Of a DNA stretch of 36,226 nt, positions 767 to 10,016 are shown piece by piece (positions within the stretch are counted from its first letter, which is position 1; every line of letters begins with the position of its first letter). The notes under the pieces were generated by a model that saw only the letters and a program-made list of their open reading frames with translations, had not been told where the DNA came from and did not search any database. A program made the position numbers and the translations under genes. The DNA is from an uncultured Acetatifactor sp. Its GTDB lineage: Bacteria > Bacillota > Clostridia > Lachnospirales > Lachnospiraceae. The stretch is from the NCBI GenBank assembly GCA_947581905.1, contig CANPWC010000004.1:1-36226 (forward strand), given 5' to 3'.

Positions 767-2008
767 TTATCTCTTCCTTAATACCAGGTGCTGAGGCAGG
801 CCGTTTACCATGAAAGGCTGGTAGTCGCCCTGGATGAGGGGCTTTACGTAATCCACGAACTCTTCGGTCACGAAGTTGCCCTCCTTGTTCACCCAATCCC
901 TGGGGACGAGCTTCTCGTTGTTGGCGATGCGGTGCACGTCATAGATGCCGGCCGCGCTCATGTAAGGATCGTCGGCGACACGGTCGATGACCACCATCTT
1001 GCCGGTATCGCCTTCGTCCGCAGCCTTGACGGCGGCGCCGCCCACCATGAACGCTTCGTCGATATCGGTACGGGAAGCCATGTGGGATGCGCTCCTCTGA
1101 AGGGTGGAGAATTCGATGGCCCTTGTCTTGCAGCCCATCTTCGCGCCCAGGTATCCTGCCAGGTAGCTGGCGGTGCCCTGAAGCTGCCTGTGTCCGAACG
1201 CGTCCACGTAATCCGCGCCGCCGGACAGTTCGCATACATAGCGGCCGTCAGCCAGCTTGATGCCCTCGGAAACCGCGATGACCACGTTCTTCTTCTTATG
1301 CACCAGTTCCTGCACTTTCTTGAAGAAACGGTCCATGTCGAACGTGATCTCAGGCAGGTAGATCAGGTCAGGGCCTTCGCATTCCTCGGTCCTTGCCAAA
1401 GCGGTAGCGCCAGTCAGCCAGCCGGCGTTGCGCCCCATGATCTCCAGGATGGTGATGTTCTCCTTATTGTAGCTTAAGCCAAGGGCGTCGCGGATGACTT
1501 CCTTGGTGGACGCGGCGATATACTTGGCGGCGCTGCCGAAGCCCGGCGTATGGTCCGTCAGGGCCAGGTCGTTGTCAATGGTCTTGGGAACGCCCAAAAA
1601 CTTCTGGGAATGTCCCTTGATGATCGCGTAATCGGACAGCTTCTTGATCGTGTCCATGGAGTCGTTGCCGCCGATATAGATGAAAGCCTCAATCTCCAAT
1701 TTATCCAGGATGGAGAAGATTTTCTCATAGAAGTCGGGATTCTCATGAATCTCAGGAAGCTTGTAACGACAGGAACCCAGGAAAGCGGAAGGGGTCCTCT
1801 TCAAAAGCTCGATATCCATGTCAGAGTGGATCTGGGTGGAAAGGTCTACGTACTGCTCGTCCAGGAAGCCCTGGATGCCGTGCAGCATGCCATATACTTT
1901 GTGGAAGCCACGTTCTTTGGCCGTCTTATAGACCCCTGCCAAGCTGGAATTGATGACAGAAGTGGGCCCGCCGGACTGGCCTACGATAATGTTGCGTCTT
2001 TTTGCCAT
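767..2008 (-). CDS. pfp: 6-phosphofructokinase, probably diphosphate (PPi)-dependent type
   Basis: IIVGQSGGPTSVINSSL, GGNDSMDTIKKLS, PKTIDNDL motifs; Asp in GGND and Lys in PKTIDND match the PPi-PFK signature. Confidence 0.9.
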   Translation of the reverse strand: MAKRRNIIVGQSGGPTSVINSSLAGVYKTAKERGFHKVYGMLHGIQGFLDEQYVDLSTQIHSDMDIELLKRTPSAFLGSCRYKLPEIHENPDFYEKIFSILDKLEIEAFIYIGGNDSMDTIKKLSDYAIIKGHSQKFLGVPKTIDNDLALTDHTPGFGSAAKYIAASTKEVIRDALGLSYNKENITILEIMGRNAGWLTGATALARTEECEGPDLIYLPEITFDMDRFFKKVQELVHKKKNVVIAVSEGIKLADGRYVCELSGGADYVDAFGHRQLQGTASYLAGYLGAKMGCKTRAIEFSTLQRSASHMASRTDIDEAFMVGGAAVKAADEGDTGKMVVIDRVADDPYMSAAGIYDVHRIANNEKLVPRDWVNKEGNFVTEEFVDYVKPLIQGDYQPFMVNGLPQHLVLRKR

Positions 2009-2065
2009 TTATAAATGCCTCCTTGCAATTGGTTGTTTAAGGATGTCTACTCCAAGTCATCCCTC

Positions 2066-2094
2066 ATTATAGCAAACAGGCTTTTCCTTTGCAA
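2066..2094 (-). promoter_or_regulatory. Sigma-A type promoter for pfp
   Basis: Minus strand TTGCAA-N17-TATAAT (-35 at 2089-2094, -10 at 2066-2071). Confidence 0.75.
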
Positions 2095-2167
2095 CTGGAA
2101 AATTCGCTAAAATAAGGGAAAATAAGAGGTTTTTTTGTTACAATGTGACCCCTTTTGCCGAGATGTG

Positions 2168-3961
2168 TCAGCCCGCGTCCTCCAGGAAATCGAACTGGGA
2201 CATGTAGAGGTCGTAATAAGCGCCGCGCTTCTTGATCAGCTCGTCGTGCGTCCCCATCTCCAGGATGCCGCCTTGGTCCACATAGACGATGCAGTCCGCG
2301 TTCTTGATGGTGGAAAGCCGGTGCGCGATGATAAAGGAGGTCCTCCCCTCCAAAAGGCGCGCCAGGCCTTTCTGCAGAAGCAGCTCCGTCTCCGTGTCGA
2401 TGCTGGAGGTCGCTTCGTCCAGGATGAGGATGCGGGGATCCGCCAAAAGGGCGCGCGCGAAAGAGATCAGCTGGCGCTGGCCGGCGGAGAGGCGGCTGCC
2501 TCGTTCATTGACTTCCGTGTAATAGCCGTTCTCCATCTGCATGATGAAGTCGTGGGCGCACACGGTCTTGGCGGCGGCGATGACCTCTTCATCCGTCGCC
2601 GTGCGGTTGCCGTAGCGGATGTTGTCCATGATGGTGCCGGCGAAGATGAAGCTGTCCTGCATCATGACGCCCATCTGCGTGCGCAGGGAGTGGATGGTCA
2701 CGGTGGAGATGTCGATGCCGTCCACCAGGATCTGGCCGGAATCCACGTTGTAGAAACGGCTCATCAGGTTGACGATGGTGGACTTGCCCGCGCCGGTAGG
2801 CCCTACGAAGGCGAAAGTCTGCCCCTGCGCAACCTTGAAGTTGATGTCATGCAGGATTTCCTGGCCCTGGTCGTAACTGAACCGCACGTCCTTAAATTCC
2901 ACGTCCCCATGGATGGGGGGCATCTCGACGGCGTCCGGGGCGTCCGCGACGTTGACCGGCTCGTCGATGGTCTCGAAGATACGTTCCAGGTAGGAAATGG
3001 CGGTCAGCAGGCTGTTATAGAACGCGGCCAAGGTGTTGATCGGGGCCCAGAACCTGCCGATGTAGGAGGTGAACAGGATCAGCGTGCCGGCCGTCAGGGT
3101 AGGGGTGGGGGCCAGGATCCATTGGATGCCTAAGACGTAGATGAACGCCAAGGTGATGGAAGAGATCATGTTCACGCTGGGGCCCATGGCGAAGTTATAC
3201 AAAACCGCCCGCATCCAGGCCTTGCGGTAGCTGTCGCTTAGGTGGTTGAAGATGCCGGTGTTTTCCTGTTCCCGCACGAAAGACTGGGTCACGCGGATGC
3301 CGTTGATGCTTTCCGCGATATAGGCGTTTAAGTTGGACTGCTTGTTGGACTGGATCTGCCAGGCGCGGCGCTGCCTTTTCTTGATGAAGATGATGACCGC
3401 GGCCAGCAAGGGCAGTCCGCAAAGGCAGATCAAGGTCAGCCTTACATCGTTGATCAGCATGAAGAACACGATGAAAAACAAGTTGCACAGATCCGTGATC
3501 GTATTGACGATGCCATTGCTAAGCAAGTCGCTTAGGCTGTTGACATAGTTTACCACCCTTACCTGGATCTTGCCATGGGGCCTGTCGTCATAATAGGAAA
3601 AAGGCAGCTCCTGCAGGTGGCAGAAAATGTCGGAGCGGATGTCATGGATGATGCCCTGCCCGATCACGCTCATGGTACGCACCTTGATGCGGGTGCAGCC
3701 CGCGGAATAGATGGAGATCACCAGGGTTAAGAGGCTGACGATGATGATGCCCTTCATGTCCTGGTTGGGGATGTAGACATCCATGATCTGCTTGAGGAAC
3801 ATGGGGATGACCATGGTTAGGGCGCTGGCGCTCAGCATCATGAAGACGACGGCGGCCATTTTCTTCGTATGCGGCCCGATGTAGCCGAACAGCCGCTTTA
3901 ATTGTTTCAGGTTAAAACTGGTCTCTAAGACCTCGTCCATGTCATATCGGTTCCGTGCCAT
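2168..3961 (-). CDS. ABC transporter, fused permease/ATP-binding (exporter half-transporter)
   Basis: Walker A GPTGAGKST, signature RLSAGQRQL (degenerate LSGGQ), Walker B ILILDEATSSID, N-terminal TM domain. Confidence 0.95.
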   Translation of the reverse strand: MARNRYDMDEVLETSFNLKQLKRLFGYIGPHTKKMAAVVFMMLSASALTMVIPMFLKQIMDVYIPNQDMKGIIIVSLLTLVISIYSAGCTRIKVRTMSVIGQGIIHDIRSDIFCHLQELPFSYYDDRPHGKIQVRVVNYVNSLSDLLSNGIVNTITDLCNLFFIVFFMLINDVRLTLICLCGLPLLAAVIIFIKKRQRRAWQIQSNKQSNLNAYIAESINGIRVTQSFVREQENTGIFNHLSDSYRKAWMRAVLYNFAMGPSVNMISSITLAFIYVLGIQWILAPTPTLTAGTLILFTSYIGRFWAPINTLAAFYNSLLTAISYLERIFETIDEPVNVADAPDAVEMPPIHGDVEFKDVRFSYDQGQEILHDINFKVAQGQTFAFVGPTGAGKSTIVNLMSRFYNVDSGQILVDGIDISTVTIHSLRTQMGVMMQDSFIFAGTIMDNIRYGNRTATDEEVIAAAKTVCAHDFIMQMENGYYTEVNERGSRLSAGQRQLISFARALLADPRILILDEATSSIDTETELLLQKGLARLLEGRTSFIIAHRLSTIKNADCIVYVDQGGILEMGTHDELIKKRGAYYDLYMSQFDFLEDAG

Positions 3962-3964
3962 GAT

Positions 3965-5758
3965 TTAAAGCCCTCCTTCCTGGCAGGCCGCGCCTGGCTT
4001 GTCATGTTTGCGCTCCTCCAACAAGTCGTAAGGGATTTCCCCGTATTGGTTGCGGAACGTGGTGGCGTAGTAGCCTCCCTGCCGTACCAGGGATTCGTGG
4101 GTGCCCTGTTCGATGATGCGCCCATGGTCCATGACCAGGATCAGGTCCGCGTCCTTGATGGAAGAGATGCGGTAGGCGATGACGAACACCGTGCAGTCCT
4201 TTTCCGCCTGGATGTTTTTCAGCTGCTTTTGGATGTAGCTTTCCGTCTCCATGTCCACGGCGGAGGTGGTGTCGTCCAGGATCAGGATGGCGGGGTCCTT
4301 AAGAAGGGCCCTGGCCAGGGAAATACGCTGCTTCTGCCCGCCGGACAGGCCCACGCCCCGTTCGCCCACGATGGTGTCATAGCCATCCGCCAGCTCCTTG
4401 ATGAAATGGTTGGCATCCGACATGATGGCCGCGTGCTTCACGTCTTCAAAGCTGCATTCGGGACGGCCATAGGAAATATTGCCCTCGATCGTGTCGGAGA
4501 ACAGGAAGACATCCTGCATCGCCATGCCGATGTTGTCCCTTAAGTTGTAAAGGTCATGCTGCCGGACGTCTATGCCGTCGATGAGCACTTCTCCGGAAGT
4601 GGTGTCGTAGAAACGGCACAATAGGTTCATCAGGGTGGACTTTCCGGAACCCGTGGTCCCGATGATGCCCACCGTCTGCCCGGCCTTGACCTGGAAATTT
4701 ATGTCGGTGACGATCTCCGCGTCGTCGGCGCGATAGGACACGTTGCGGAATTCCACGTTCCCTTTAAGCTTTTCCTGGATGCCGCCGATCCTGGGCGAGA
4801 CGACTTTGGGCTCTTCGCTGTAGGTGGCGTAAATCTTTTCCACCGAAGTGATGAAGTTCTGGATGTCGTTGACCCACCAGCCAGCCATACGCAAGGGATT
4901 GTTGAGCATCCACAGATAGCCGTTGATCTTGACCATGTCGCCCAAGGTGATCTCCCCGCAGATGACCATATAGCCGCCGTAGAGCATCAGCACCACGTTC
5001 AGCATGTTGGAGAAGATTTCAAAGTTCGGCACATATTTGCTCCAAATCTTGGAAGCGTTGACCTGGGAATCCCGGAACTTGTCATTCTCCACGTTGAATT
5101 TCTCAATCTCGTAATCTTCCTTAGCAAAAGCCTTGACCACGCGGTTGCCGCTGACGTTCTCCTGCACGAACGCGTTCAGGGAGGAGAAGCAGTCCCGGTT
5201 GCGCTGGAACGCGGGACGCACTTTCGTCGCCTGCTGATAGGTGGTTAATACCGTGAACGGCAGCACCAGGATCATGAGGAGGGCGAGCTTCACGTTGACG
5301 GTGAAGATCATAAGGAGCGCGAAAATGAACATCAGGATGTTCTGGTAAATGGTGTAAATGCACATGGCGACGAAATGCCGGATGGCCTCCATATCACCGG
5401 TCTGGCGGCTCATCAGGTCGCCGGTCCGCTTCCTATTATAAAAGGCGAAGTCCTCCATCAGAAGCTTGCGGTACACCTTGTCCCTCATGTCGTACAAGAC
5501 GCCTTGGGAAGCCGTCTCGAAGATGAACTGGTACAAGACGGTCAGGGCGCCGATCACTACCGTGACCAAGAGCAGGCAAAAGACCAGGAAGGGCAGCTTG
5601 TCATAAGCGCCTCCCGTGATGACGTCATCCACGATGGCGCCGGATATGTAGGGGTTGACGAGGGACAGCGCCGCAATCACGGTGGTCATGAGCAACCCCA
5701 GGGCTAAGAGCTTTTGATACTTCTTTAAAAAGGAATAAAACCATTTCATCGGTGTCAT
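3965..5758 (-). CDS. ABC transporter, fused permease/ATP-binding (partner half-transporter)
   Basis: Walker A GTTGSGKST, LSGGQKQR, Walker B ILILDDTTSAVD; 3 nt from downstream partner, likely heterodimer. Confidence 0.95.
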   Translation of the reverse strand: MTPMKWFYSFLKKYQKLLALGLLMTTVIAALSLVNPYISGAIVDDVITGGAYDKLPFLVFCLLLVTVVIGALTVLYQFIFETASQGVLYDMRDKVYRKLLMEDFAFYNRKRTGDLMSRQTGDMEAIRHFVAMCIYTIYQNILMFIFALLMIFTVNVKLALLMILVLPFTVLTTYQQATKVRPAFQRNRDCFSSLNAFVQENVSGNRVVKAFAKEDYEIEKFNVENDKFRDSQVNASKIWSKYVPNFEIFSNMLNVVLMLYGGYMVICGEITLGDMVKINGYLWMLNNPLRMAGWWVNDIQNFITSVEKIYATYSEEPKVVSPRIGGIQEKLKGNVEFRNVSYRADDAEIVTDINFQVKAGQTVGIIGTTGSGKSTLMNLLCRFYDTTSGEVLIDGIDVRQHDLYNLRDNIGMAMQDVFLFSDTIEGNISYGRPECSFEDVKHAAIMSDANHFIKELADGYDTIVGERGVGLSGGQKQRISLARALLKDPAILILDDTTSAVDMETESYIQKQLKNIQAEKDCTVFVIAYRISSIKDADLILVMDHGRIIEQGTHESLVRQGGYYATTFRNQYGEIPYDLLEERKHDKPGAACQEGGL

Positions 5759-5980: not shown

Positions 5981-6844
5981 ATGTGTGACGGAAAAAGTAT
6001 TTTTGCGGAAGAGTTGAACCCTACTTTCTTATTCACCTGGAAAGGCATGCGTAACAGCGGCAAAGAGGAAGCGCTGGAGAACTACCATAGCCATGAGTAC
6101 GTGGAGGTCGCCGTGATATTGTCCGGACATGGCAGGCATCGCGTGGAGGACCGGATTTTGGATGTGTCCGAGGGAGATGTGCTGATCTTAAACCCCGGCG
6201 TCCGCCACCAGGCCTTGTCGGTCGAGGGGAATGATTCACCCAGCGTCGAATTCTTCATCGCGGCCGCCGATTTCCATATCAAAGACCTGCCTCCAAATTC
6301 CCTGCCTCTGCCTAAGGGCGCGCCCATCCTCCATACCGAAGGTGATTTAAGGCAGCGCATCATGCGCATCTGCTCCTATATGGAGGCGGAGAACGCCGTA
6401 TGCCGCCAGGGGCGGTATTATATGATGAAGGCTTACCTCATCCAGATCCTGCTTTTGATCATCCGTGAGCAGTATGAGCCGGAGGAGCGCAAGGACGCCT
6501 ATTCCTTTGAATCCGTGAACCGCAAGTATGTGGTGGAGCAGATCCTCAATTATTTCGAGGACCATTACAATGAAAAGATATCCCTGGACCAGATCGCGGA
6601 AAACATGTACTTAAGCCCTTTTTACATCTCCAAGATCTTTAAGAGCGAGACGGGCAACACCCCGATCCGCCACCTGATCGACATCCGCCTTTCCCGTGCC
6701 AAGGAATTGTTGGAAAACGGCTGGAGCGGCAGCATCCAGGAGGTCGCGGCTTTTGTAGGATATGACGATGCCTACCATTTCAGCAAGCTTTTTAAGAAGC
6801 GTTACAACTTAACCCCCACCCAGGTCAAGAAAGGCGCGGTATAG
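5981..6844 (+). CDS. AraC family transcriptional regulator (cupin sensor + double HTH)
   Basis: N-terminal cupin-like segment (YHSHEYVEVAVILSGHGRHRV); C-terminal ISLDQIAENMYLSPFYISKIFKSETGNTPIRHLIDIRLSRAKELL...VGYDDAYHFSKLFKKRYNLTPTQ. Confidence 0.95.
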   Translation: MCDGKSIFAEELNPTFLFTWKGMRNSGKEEALENYHSHEYVEVAVILSGHGRHRVEDRILDVSEGDVLILNPGVRHQALSVEGNDSPSVEFFIAAADFHIKDLPPNSLPLPKGAPILHTEGDLRQRIMRICSYMEAENAVCRQGRYYMMKAYLIQILLLIIREQYEPEERKDAYSFESVNRKYVVEQILNYFEDHYNEKISLDQIAENMYLSPFYISKIFKSETGNTPIRHLIDIRLSRAKELLENGWSGSIQEVAAFVGYDDAYHFSKLFKKRYNLTPTQVKKGAV

Positions 6845-6877: not shown

Positions 6878-6906
6878 TTTTCAAACCTGGAGAAATGTGG
6901 TACAAT
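6878..6906 (+). promoter_or_regulatory. Putative sigma-A promoter with extended -10
   Basis: TTTTCA-N17-TACAAT with TGG immediately 5' of the -10. Confidence 0.55.
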
Positions 6907-7005: not shown

Positions 7006-7029
7006 GATTAACATATTGGAGGGTGAATT

Positions 7030-7698
7030 ATGAGGTATTTCTTTGAGTCTTGCGTGGAAAAAAAGGAAGAGGGCTACGTGATCCAGATTCCCTTTAACAT
7101 TTGGGAGGTCTGCAAGCAGCGTGACGTCATCCAGGCAGATGTCGTCCTGGACAACAAGATCATCGCCTGTGAACTGCTTCCCTTGCAAAAGGGCAACTAC
7201 GAGATCCATATCAAGGACGAGGACGCGGTCACGGTGGAACTGGGCGTGCCCCACAAGATCCTGCTCCATGTGAATGGTTCCCTGATCCGTATGGACCAGA
7301 ACAGCCCTTATAGCTTTGACAACCCGATCCGTAAGATTGACAGCATGAAGGTCATCATCCAGCCCGAGGACGGCTTGTGCGGACAGGCCTGCGTGGCGAT
7401 GCTTGCGGGCATCACCATCGCCGAGGTCATCATGGTCATGGACTGCAGGGAGTGGCAGGCGACCATGGGACGCATGATCTCCGCCCTGAACTATTTCGGG
7501 ATCGACCACAGCGACATCATCGTCTATACCGAAGGCAGGGACGCGGTGCTTCCGAAATGCTGCATCATGATGGAGAGGATGGGGCGCTATTGCCATTACC
7601 TGATCCATTACGACGGCAAGTACTATGACTCCAACTTAGGCGTCCTGCAGGAATATGACATGAGCAAGCTCTTGGGTTATCTGGAGATCAAGTGTTAA
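7030..7698 (+). CDS. DUF1905-like N-terminal domain fused to C39/papain-like cysteine peptidase-like domain
   Basis: N-terminus (GYVIQIPFNIWEVCKQRDVIQADVVLDNKIIACELLPLQKGNYEIHIKDED) resembles DUF1905; C-terminus has QPEDGLCGQACVAML and CHYLIHYDGKYYDSN, resembling Q...C and H/D catalytic motifs of C39-like peptidases. Confidence 0.6.
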   Translation: MRYFFESCVEKKEEGYVIQIPFNIWEVCKQRDVIQADVVLDNKIIACELLPLQKGNYEIHIKDEDAVTVELGVPHKILLHVNGSLIRMDQNSPYSFDNPIRKIDSMKVIIQPEDGLCGQACVAMLAGITIAEVIMVMDCREWQATMGRMISALNYFGIDHSDIIVYTEGRDAVLPKCCIMMERMGRYCHYLIHYDGKYYDSNLGVLQEYDMSKLLGYLEIKC

Positions 7699-7714
7699 GG
7701 ACCAGCTTTCGACA

Positions 7715-7744
7715 GGGCCCCGGCGTCGCCGGGGCCCTTTTTTC
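7715..7744 (+). terminator. Intrinsic terminator
   Basis: GGGCCCCGGC-GTC-GCCGGGGCCC followed by TTTTTTT. Confidence 0.95.
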
Positions 7745-7924: not shown

Positions 7925-7951
7925 TTAGCACTCATAGGAAAAGAGTGCTAA
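7925..7951. promoter_or_regulatory. CIRCE operator (HrcA binding site)
   Basis: TTAGCACTC-N9-GAGTGCTAA, exact match to CIRCE consensus, upstream of groES. Confidence 0.97.
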
Positions 7952-7989: not shown

Positions 7990-8280
7990 TTGACCATGAA
8001 ATTGGTTCCATTGGGTGACAGAGTGGTATTGAAGCAGCTGGTCGCAGAGGAGACGACCAAGTCCGGCATCGTTCTTCCCGGGCAGAATAAGGAGAAGCCT
8101 CAGCAGGCGGAAGTCATCGCGGTAGGCCCCGGCGGCGTCGTGGACGGCAAAGAAGTGAAGATGGAGGTCAAGGTTGGCGACAACGTCATCTACTCCAAGT
8201 ATTCCGGCACGGAAGTGAAGTTGGAGAATGAGGAATACATCATCGTAAGGCAGAGCGACATCCTGGCGGTCATCCAGTAA
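7990..8280 (+). CDS. groES: Co-chaperonin GroES
   Basis: [50 protein letters not shown] at 7996 gives [11 protein letters not shown] and is the more likely start. Confidence 0.97.

Positions 8281-8357: not shown

Positions 8358-10016
<1,659 letters not shown>

Follow-up and report, generated by a model that had tools for sequence, protein, structure and literature searches.

A DUF1905 domain joined to a C39-type peptidase domain in a conserved family of Lachnospiraceae proteins

The gene at positions 7030-7698 of the window, a stretch of 36,226 nucleotides from an uncultured Acetatifactor sp. (contig CANPWC010000004.1), encodes a protein of 222 residues that almost certainly consists of an N-terminal DUF1905 domain and a C-terminal C39-type peptidase domain. 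DUF1905-C39 fusions form a separate family, spread over ~20 or more genera, with C39-only, GNAT-fused and phage relatives. In this conserved gut-bacterial family, the C39 fold is detached from exporters, cytoplasmic and joined to DUF1905. The explanation that we consider best, with somewhat less than even confidence, is a soluble C39-type hydrolase that would use DUF1905 as a binding module and a peptide or amide compound as substrate. The best-known role of C39 domains is that of leader peptidase in bacteriocin and quorum-sensing exporters, and DUF1905 is, to our knowledge, a domain without assigned function. No published description of a DUF1905-C39 fusion was found in the literature searched, which comprised sources accessible without subscription.

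Domain architecture and predicted catalytic residues

The features of the gene and its surroundings are compiled in Table 1. The dN/dS ratio of the gene was ~0.02-0.05 in comparisons in which synonymous change was not saturated, indicating strong purifying selection. Thus, the open reading frame is a true coding gene and not a chance one. The peptides quoted in the original prediction were all present. The promoter-like sequence is suggestive at best, since it is a consensus match of a kind found twice where 1.3 were expected. Terminator-type matches in the region did not exceed the number expected by chance; the stem at 7714-7738 is nonetheless strong and well placed.

Table 1. Features of the DUF1905-C39-like gene and its neighbourhood (positions in the window)
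Feature	Position	Strand	Basis or remark
AraC/cupin regulator, upstream conserved neighbour	5981..6844	+	Pfam
Promoter-like TTTTCA-N17-TACAAT, TG before -10, 5' of gene	6878..6906	+	consensus match
Ribosome-binding site GGAGGGTGAATT, then ATG	7018..7029	+	read directly in the sequence
DUF1905-C39-like gene, 222 aa	7030..7698	+	ATG start, whole ORF including stop
DUF1905 barrel, residues ~1-91	7030..7302	+	Pfam PF08922, hhalign, Foldseek to 2d9r
Linker SPYSFDNPIRKID, residues 92-104	7303..7341	+	also precedes the C39-like domain in GNAT-fused relatives
C39-type peptidase domain, residues 105-222	7342..7695	+	Pfam, hhalign, Foldseek
Gln111, predicted oxyanion-hole residue	7360..7362	+	Q-X5-C spacing as in C39 exporters
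Cys117, predicted nucleophile	7378..7380	+	aligned with exporter Cys
His189, predicted catalytic base	7594..7596	+	invariance, alignment
Asp200, predicted third triad residue	7627..7629	+	invariance, alignment
Intrinsic terminator, 11-bp stem then T run, between gene and groES	7714..7738	+	stem strong, correctly placed
groES, downstream conserved neighbour	7990..8280	+	synteny count
groEL, downstream conserved neighbour	8385..10016	+	synteny

The likeness to DUF1905 covers the N-terminal ~91 residues and was detected by Pfam, hhalign and Foldseek. Against the Pfam model (PF08922; gathering score 24), the window protein reached 21.7 bits (E 2e-4), and 24.1 bits in a genome search with neighbours in frame. 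Many relatives exceeded the gathering score; all 11 aligned relatives matched the model (best E 5e-8), and the distant fusions L134 and L252 scored higher, with 44.9 and 37.8 bits, respectively. Depending on the search, the window protein itself thus stood at 21.7-24.1 bits against a threshold of 24. Comparison with standalone DUF1905 proteins by hhalign gave 92.7% (E 4e-7), and the predicted structure of the N-terminal half was matched by Foldseek to PDB 2d9r, which we take to be a DUF1905 representative, with a probability of 1.00, a TMt of 0.75 and an rmsd of 2.7 over 85 columns. Canonical DUF1905 proteins in related genomes mostly comprise ~100 residues, whereas the DUF1905 domain of the window protein is joined to a papain-fold enzyme.

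Single-sequence searches with the C-terminal half were weak, and the window sequence alone matched Peptidase_C39 (PF03412) with an E of 0.16, below gathering. The nine related C-terminal domains of alignment A2 all matched PF03412 at E<=1, again weakly (best 1.6e-4), and a 19-member profile retrieved the AMS/PCAT leader peptidase 6mpz (E 0.0047). The comparison with the C39 domains of ABC exporters by hhalign yielded 97% (E 8e-11). An AlphaFold2 model built on an 18-sequence alignment had a mean pLDDT of 90 and a pTM of 0.87. The best PDB matches of its C-terminal half in Foldseek were the peptidase domains of PCAT1, ComA and AMS proteins (top E 3.9e-4, probability 1.00), with moderate TM-scores, as expected when only half of the protein matches. 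DUF3335 (PF11814) and Peptidase_C39_2 (PF13529) were each matched by one member, with E values of 0.11 and 0.074, which does not justify assignment to either family, and no known family was matched in NCBIfam. Csd3_N2 and other weak Pfam matches were dropped because they were not common to the relatives.

In both hhalign and the profile search, C117, H189 and D200 aligned with the corresponding residues of exporter C39 domains. Together with Q111, they were invariant in all 81 close sequences. A wider count covered 236 related domains from cells and phages: the Cys was kept in every one, the His was missing in 5 and the Asp in 9, and the Gln was present in 219, its place being otherwise taken by E, P, Y or a gap. 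Profile matches of the relatives and by hhalign, a predicted Cys-His-Asp triad with an upstream Gln and a predicted papain-type fold thus place the domain in PF03412. The original prediction had described the two halves in just this way. Its Q-C-H-D/N layout holds for the first three residues and the aspartate, the third triad residue being Asp (D200) and not Asn. The peptidase or amidase-like activity that it proposed is likewise a putative one here.

The domain shares its predicted fold and the Q-X5-C-G, H and D layout with the C39 domains of PCAT/AMS exporters (PF03412; PCAT1, ComA, 6mpz). The latter, however, sit in an ABC transporter, whereas the window protein is soluble and fused to DUF1905, without a precursor gene seen alongside. 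It therefore has a C39-type domain yet is not a C39 exporter, being a soluble protein of 222 residues with no transporter domain and no neighbour with a GG leader in view. Inspection by eye revealed no signal peptide, and neither an exporter nor a precursor peptide gene was seen directly beside 7030-7698, both as originally claimed. The latter statement covers the immediate neighbours; ABC genes at 2168-5758 are located on the opposite strand, beyond the AraC gene.

Distribution and genomic setting

Homologs were present in 32 of 36 genomes of the same genus, in addition to the window's own genome (2.35 Mb). Among these 32 copies, one is a fragment at the edge of a contig; the full-length homologs are 71-89% identical, and none is interrupted by stops. 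When Lachnospiraceae were sampled with one genome per genus, 37 of 249 genera matched the C39-like profile, a number that includes ABC exporters of 700+ residues and C39-only proteins. In about two dozen of these genera, the match had the size of the fusion, and all those inspected carried the DUF1905 motif (L237 and L249 lay outside the inspection). Beyond Lachnospiraceae, further families of the order and of the class contain such fusions as well (L129, L130, L134, L145, L149). The search for further fusions that had been recommended at the outset thus revealed a widespread family instead of an isolated case. In a tree of 58 rows, 29 DUF1905 fusions fell into a single clade (support 100/98); the remaining one, L134, grouped with C39-only proteins. 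With L134 standing apart, two histories are conceivable: an old fusion from which some lines have lost DUF1905, or two separate origins. Inheritance of the gene was largely vertical, and a search for plasmid-borne relatives found none.

The genomic setting was evaluated at those of 80 named loci that had enough flanking sequence. In 52 of 71 loci, the DUF1905-C39 gene was preceded by the AraC gene in the same orientation, and in 66 of 73 it was followed by groES. In many other Lachnospiraceae genera, the gene has unrelated neighbours; the synteny may therefore reflect simple inheritance. An operon with groESL was considered and is countered by the terminator at 7714-7738 and by a CIRCE-like inverted repeat before groES. 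The repeat, TTAGCACTC...GAGTGCTAA, was read directly at 7925-7951 of the window. CIRCE is the usual operator of the heat-shock repressor HrcA. Judged from these signals, groES is probably transcribed separately from the 222-residue gene.

Fusion partners, neighbours and phage relatives

In four loci of one family of the order (L131:766-1902, L132, L133 and L135:934-1896), a GNAT acetyltransferase is fused to the C39-like domain. These forms share a linker of the SPYS-x-NPIR-x-ID type before the C39-like domain. The occurrence of the same linker after either DUF1905 or GNAT suggests that the N-terminal partner is interchangeable.

Evidence on neighbours was gathered by inspection, and genes outside the Pfam scans were recognised by reading the sequence. 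In L129 and L145, Pfam (GyrI-like and Cass2) identified an AraC-GyrI regulator directly upstream of the DUF1905-C39 gene; L130 and L251 have the same arrangement, as judged from their alignment to this pair. In L137, a Pfam-confirmed AraC-GyrI gene stands beside a C39-only gene. GyrI genes are scarce, with about 2 per genome, which puts the expected probability of accidental adjacency well below 1% per gene. The cases within the DUF1905 clade probably represent one inherited arrangement. The XRE regulators next to C39-only genes resembled GyrI on visual inspection; they were not counted, as hhalign gave 0.5%. GNAT genes adjoin C39-only genes in L138/L230, L140/L227 and L228, and genes of the glyoxalase/bleomycin-resistance type, APH, beta-lactamase-like, YjbR and DUF1801 genes adjoin or lie near other relatives. 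No GyrI, GNAT or resistance-like neighbour was found in the window's lineage, and the window's genome contained no GyrI match anywhere. A separate DUF1905 locus (L207:1015-2536) carries a DUF1801-like ORF, recognised by eye, and a GyrI-like ORF (match G039:C64:2356-2883), hinting that DUF1905 itself keeps company with GyrI and DUF1801.

All nine C39-like domains of A2 matched the phage family phrog_4049 (best 6e-10), and the best Foldseek match among viral models was a 'Peptidase C39 domain-containing protein' of Bacillus phage vB_BcoS-136. The likeness comprises profile and fold matches and common C-H-DP motifs; the phage forms are single domains of ~120-140 residues, whereas the window protein has two domains. 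Phage contigs with a single-domain C39-like gene akin to phrog_4049 are L161 (4001-4405), L155 (3944-4360) and L163 (4004-4366). As read from the sequence, the gene abuts a terminase-like gene in L161 and L155 and lies between tail genes in L163.

Proposed function and alternatives

We propose that the protein may act as a soluble cysteine hydrolase of the cytoplasm; its C-terminal domain would represent a minimal C39/papain-fold enzyme with a Cys117-His189-Asp200 triad and Gln111 in the oxyanion hole. The DUF1905 barrel would be a module for binding or positioning, located where classical C39 proteins have their ABC transporter. The putative substrate would be a small compound, peptidic or xenobiotic, in which a peptide or amide bond is hydrolysed, and not an export leader; the role would be detoxifying or compound-modifying. 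The presence of the catalytic residues speaks in favour of an active enzyme, which we consider very probable. The substrate class is suggested by the neighbours of relatives, a line of evidence that is weakest for the window's lineage, and is put forward quite tentatively. A more specific version, in which a soluble C39-fold family with interchangeable DUF1905 or GNAT partners inactivates or remodels intracellular antibiotics or toxins of the peptide or amide type, appears rather unlikely. If true, DUF1905 would gain its first functional setting, and a resistance role would be added to a fold otherwise associated chiefly with the cleavage of leader peptides. The substrate, once found, would point to a function for DUF1905, for the GNAT-fused and C39-only relatives and for phrog_4049.

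A compound-modifying role is placed first on the strength of the neighbours of relatives, yet at modest confidence, as such neighbours are absent in the window's lineage; a housekeeping protease comes second. Such a cytosolic protease or amidase would trim or modify a cellular protein or peptide, perhaps as part of quality control of proteins, and DUF1905 would recruit the substrate. Since the gene is near-universal and strongly conserved in the genus, housekeeping fits better than detoxification, and the spread over ~20 or more genera, the largely vertical inheritance, the low dN/dS and the groESL synteny point the same way. Cpe1, a soluble effector of the papain-like type that has been likened to ABC exporter peptidases, cleaves the proteins GyrB and ParE (PMC12136450) and provides a precedent. 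However, groESL has its own promoter region, the terminator ends the 222-residue gene first, and no substrate candidate emerged, so that we regard a housekeeping role as somewhat doubtful. The nearest solved structures, the PCAT/AMS and ComA leader peptidases, would also suit a detached exporter peptidase that matures peptides after a double-glycine leader, their precursor being encoded elsewhere. Yet the sequence is far from exporter domains, and neither a PCAT exporter nor a precursor was observed beside the window gene or the inspected relatives (the systematic search covered ORFs above 60-70 residues), which makes this improbable.

Little likelihood attaches to a protein that would use the C39-like fold for ligand binding and DUF1905 for regulation. 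The invariance of all four residues in the window's lineage, and of C, H and D in nearly all of the 236 domains, speaks against it. In its favour, the DUF1905-C39-like proteins L149:1171-1806 (+) and L252:1441-2154 (-), sisters in the tree, retain DUF1905 and a CGHCC motif and have lost the catalytic His and Asp. These two are probable pseudoenzymes, and some family members may thus act without catalysis. Papain-fold enzymes include transferases, and the GNAT fusions and neighbours suggest acyl-group chemistry; an acyl- or peptidyl-transferase working via a Cys thioester is nevertheless improbable, because the searches by sequence and by structure retrieved no known transferase with the papain fold.

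A Cpe1-like toxin was rejected. The effectors of this type differ from the window gene, which has neither a delivery domain nor an immunity gene and is conserved, chromosomal and largely vertically inherited; by this context it is not a toxin. Chain 9l5u, a 'DUF4150 domain-containing protein', aligned weakly with the 19-member profile (E 0.02), its link to Cpe1 not being established. An anti-phage defence system was likewise discarded, as PADLOC gave no match for four representatives. Directly 3' of the C39-only gene in L232, a second, different papain-like ORF of the C39_2 type was observed (1893-2429, plus strand), matching PF13529 with an E of 8e-4, below gathering.
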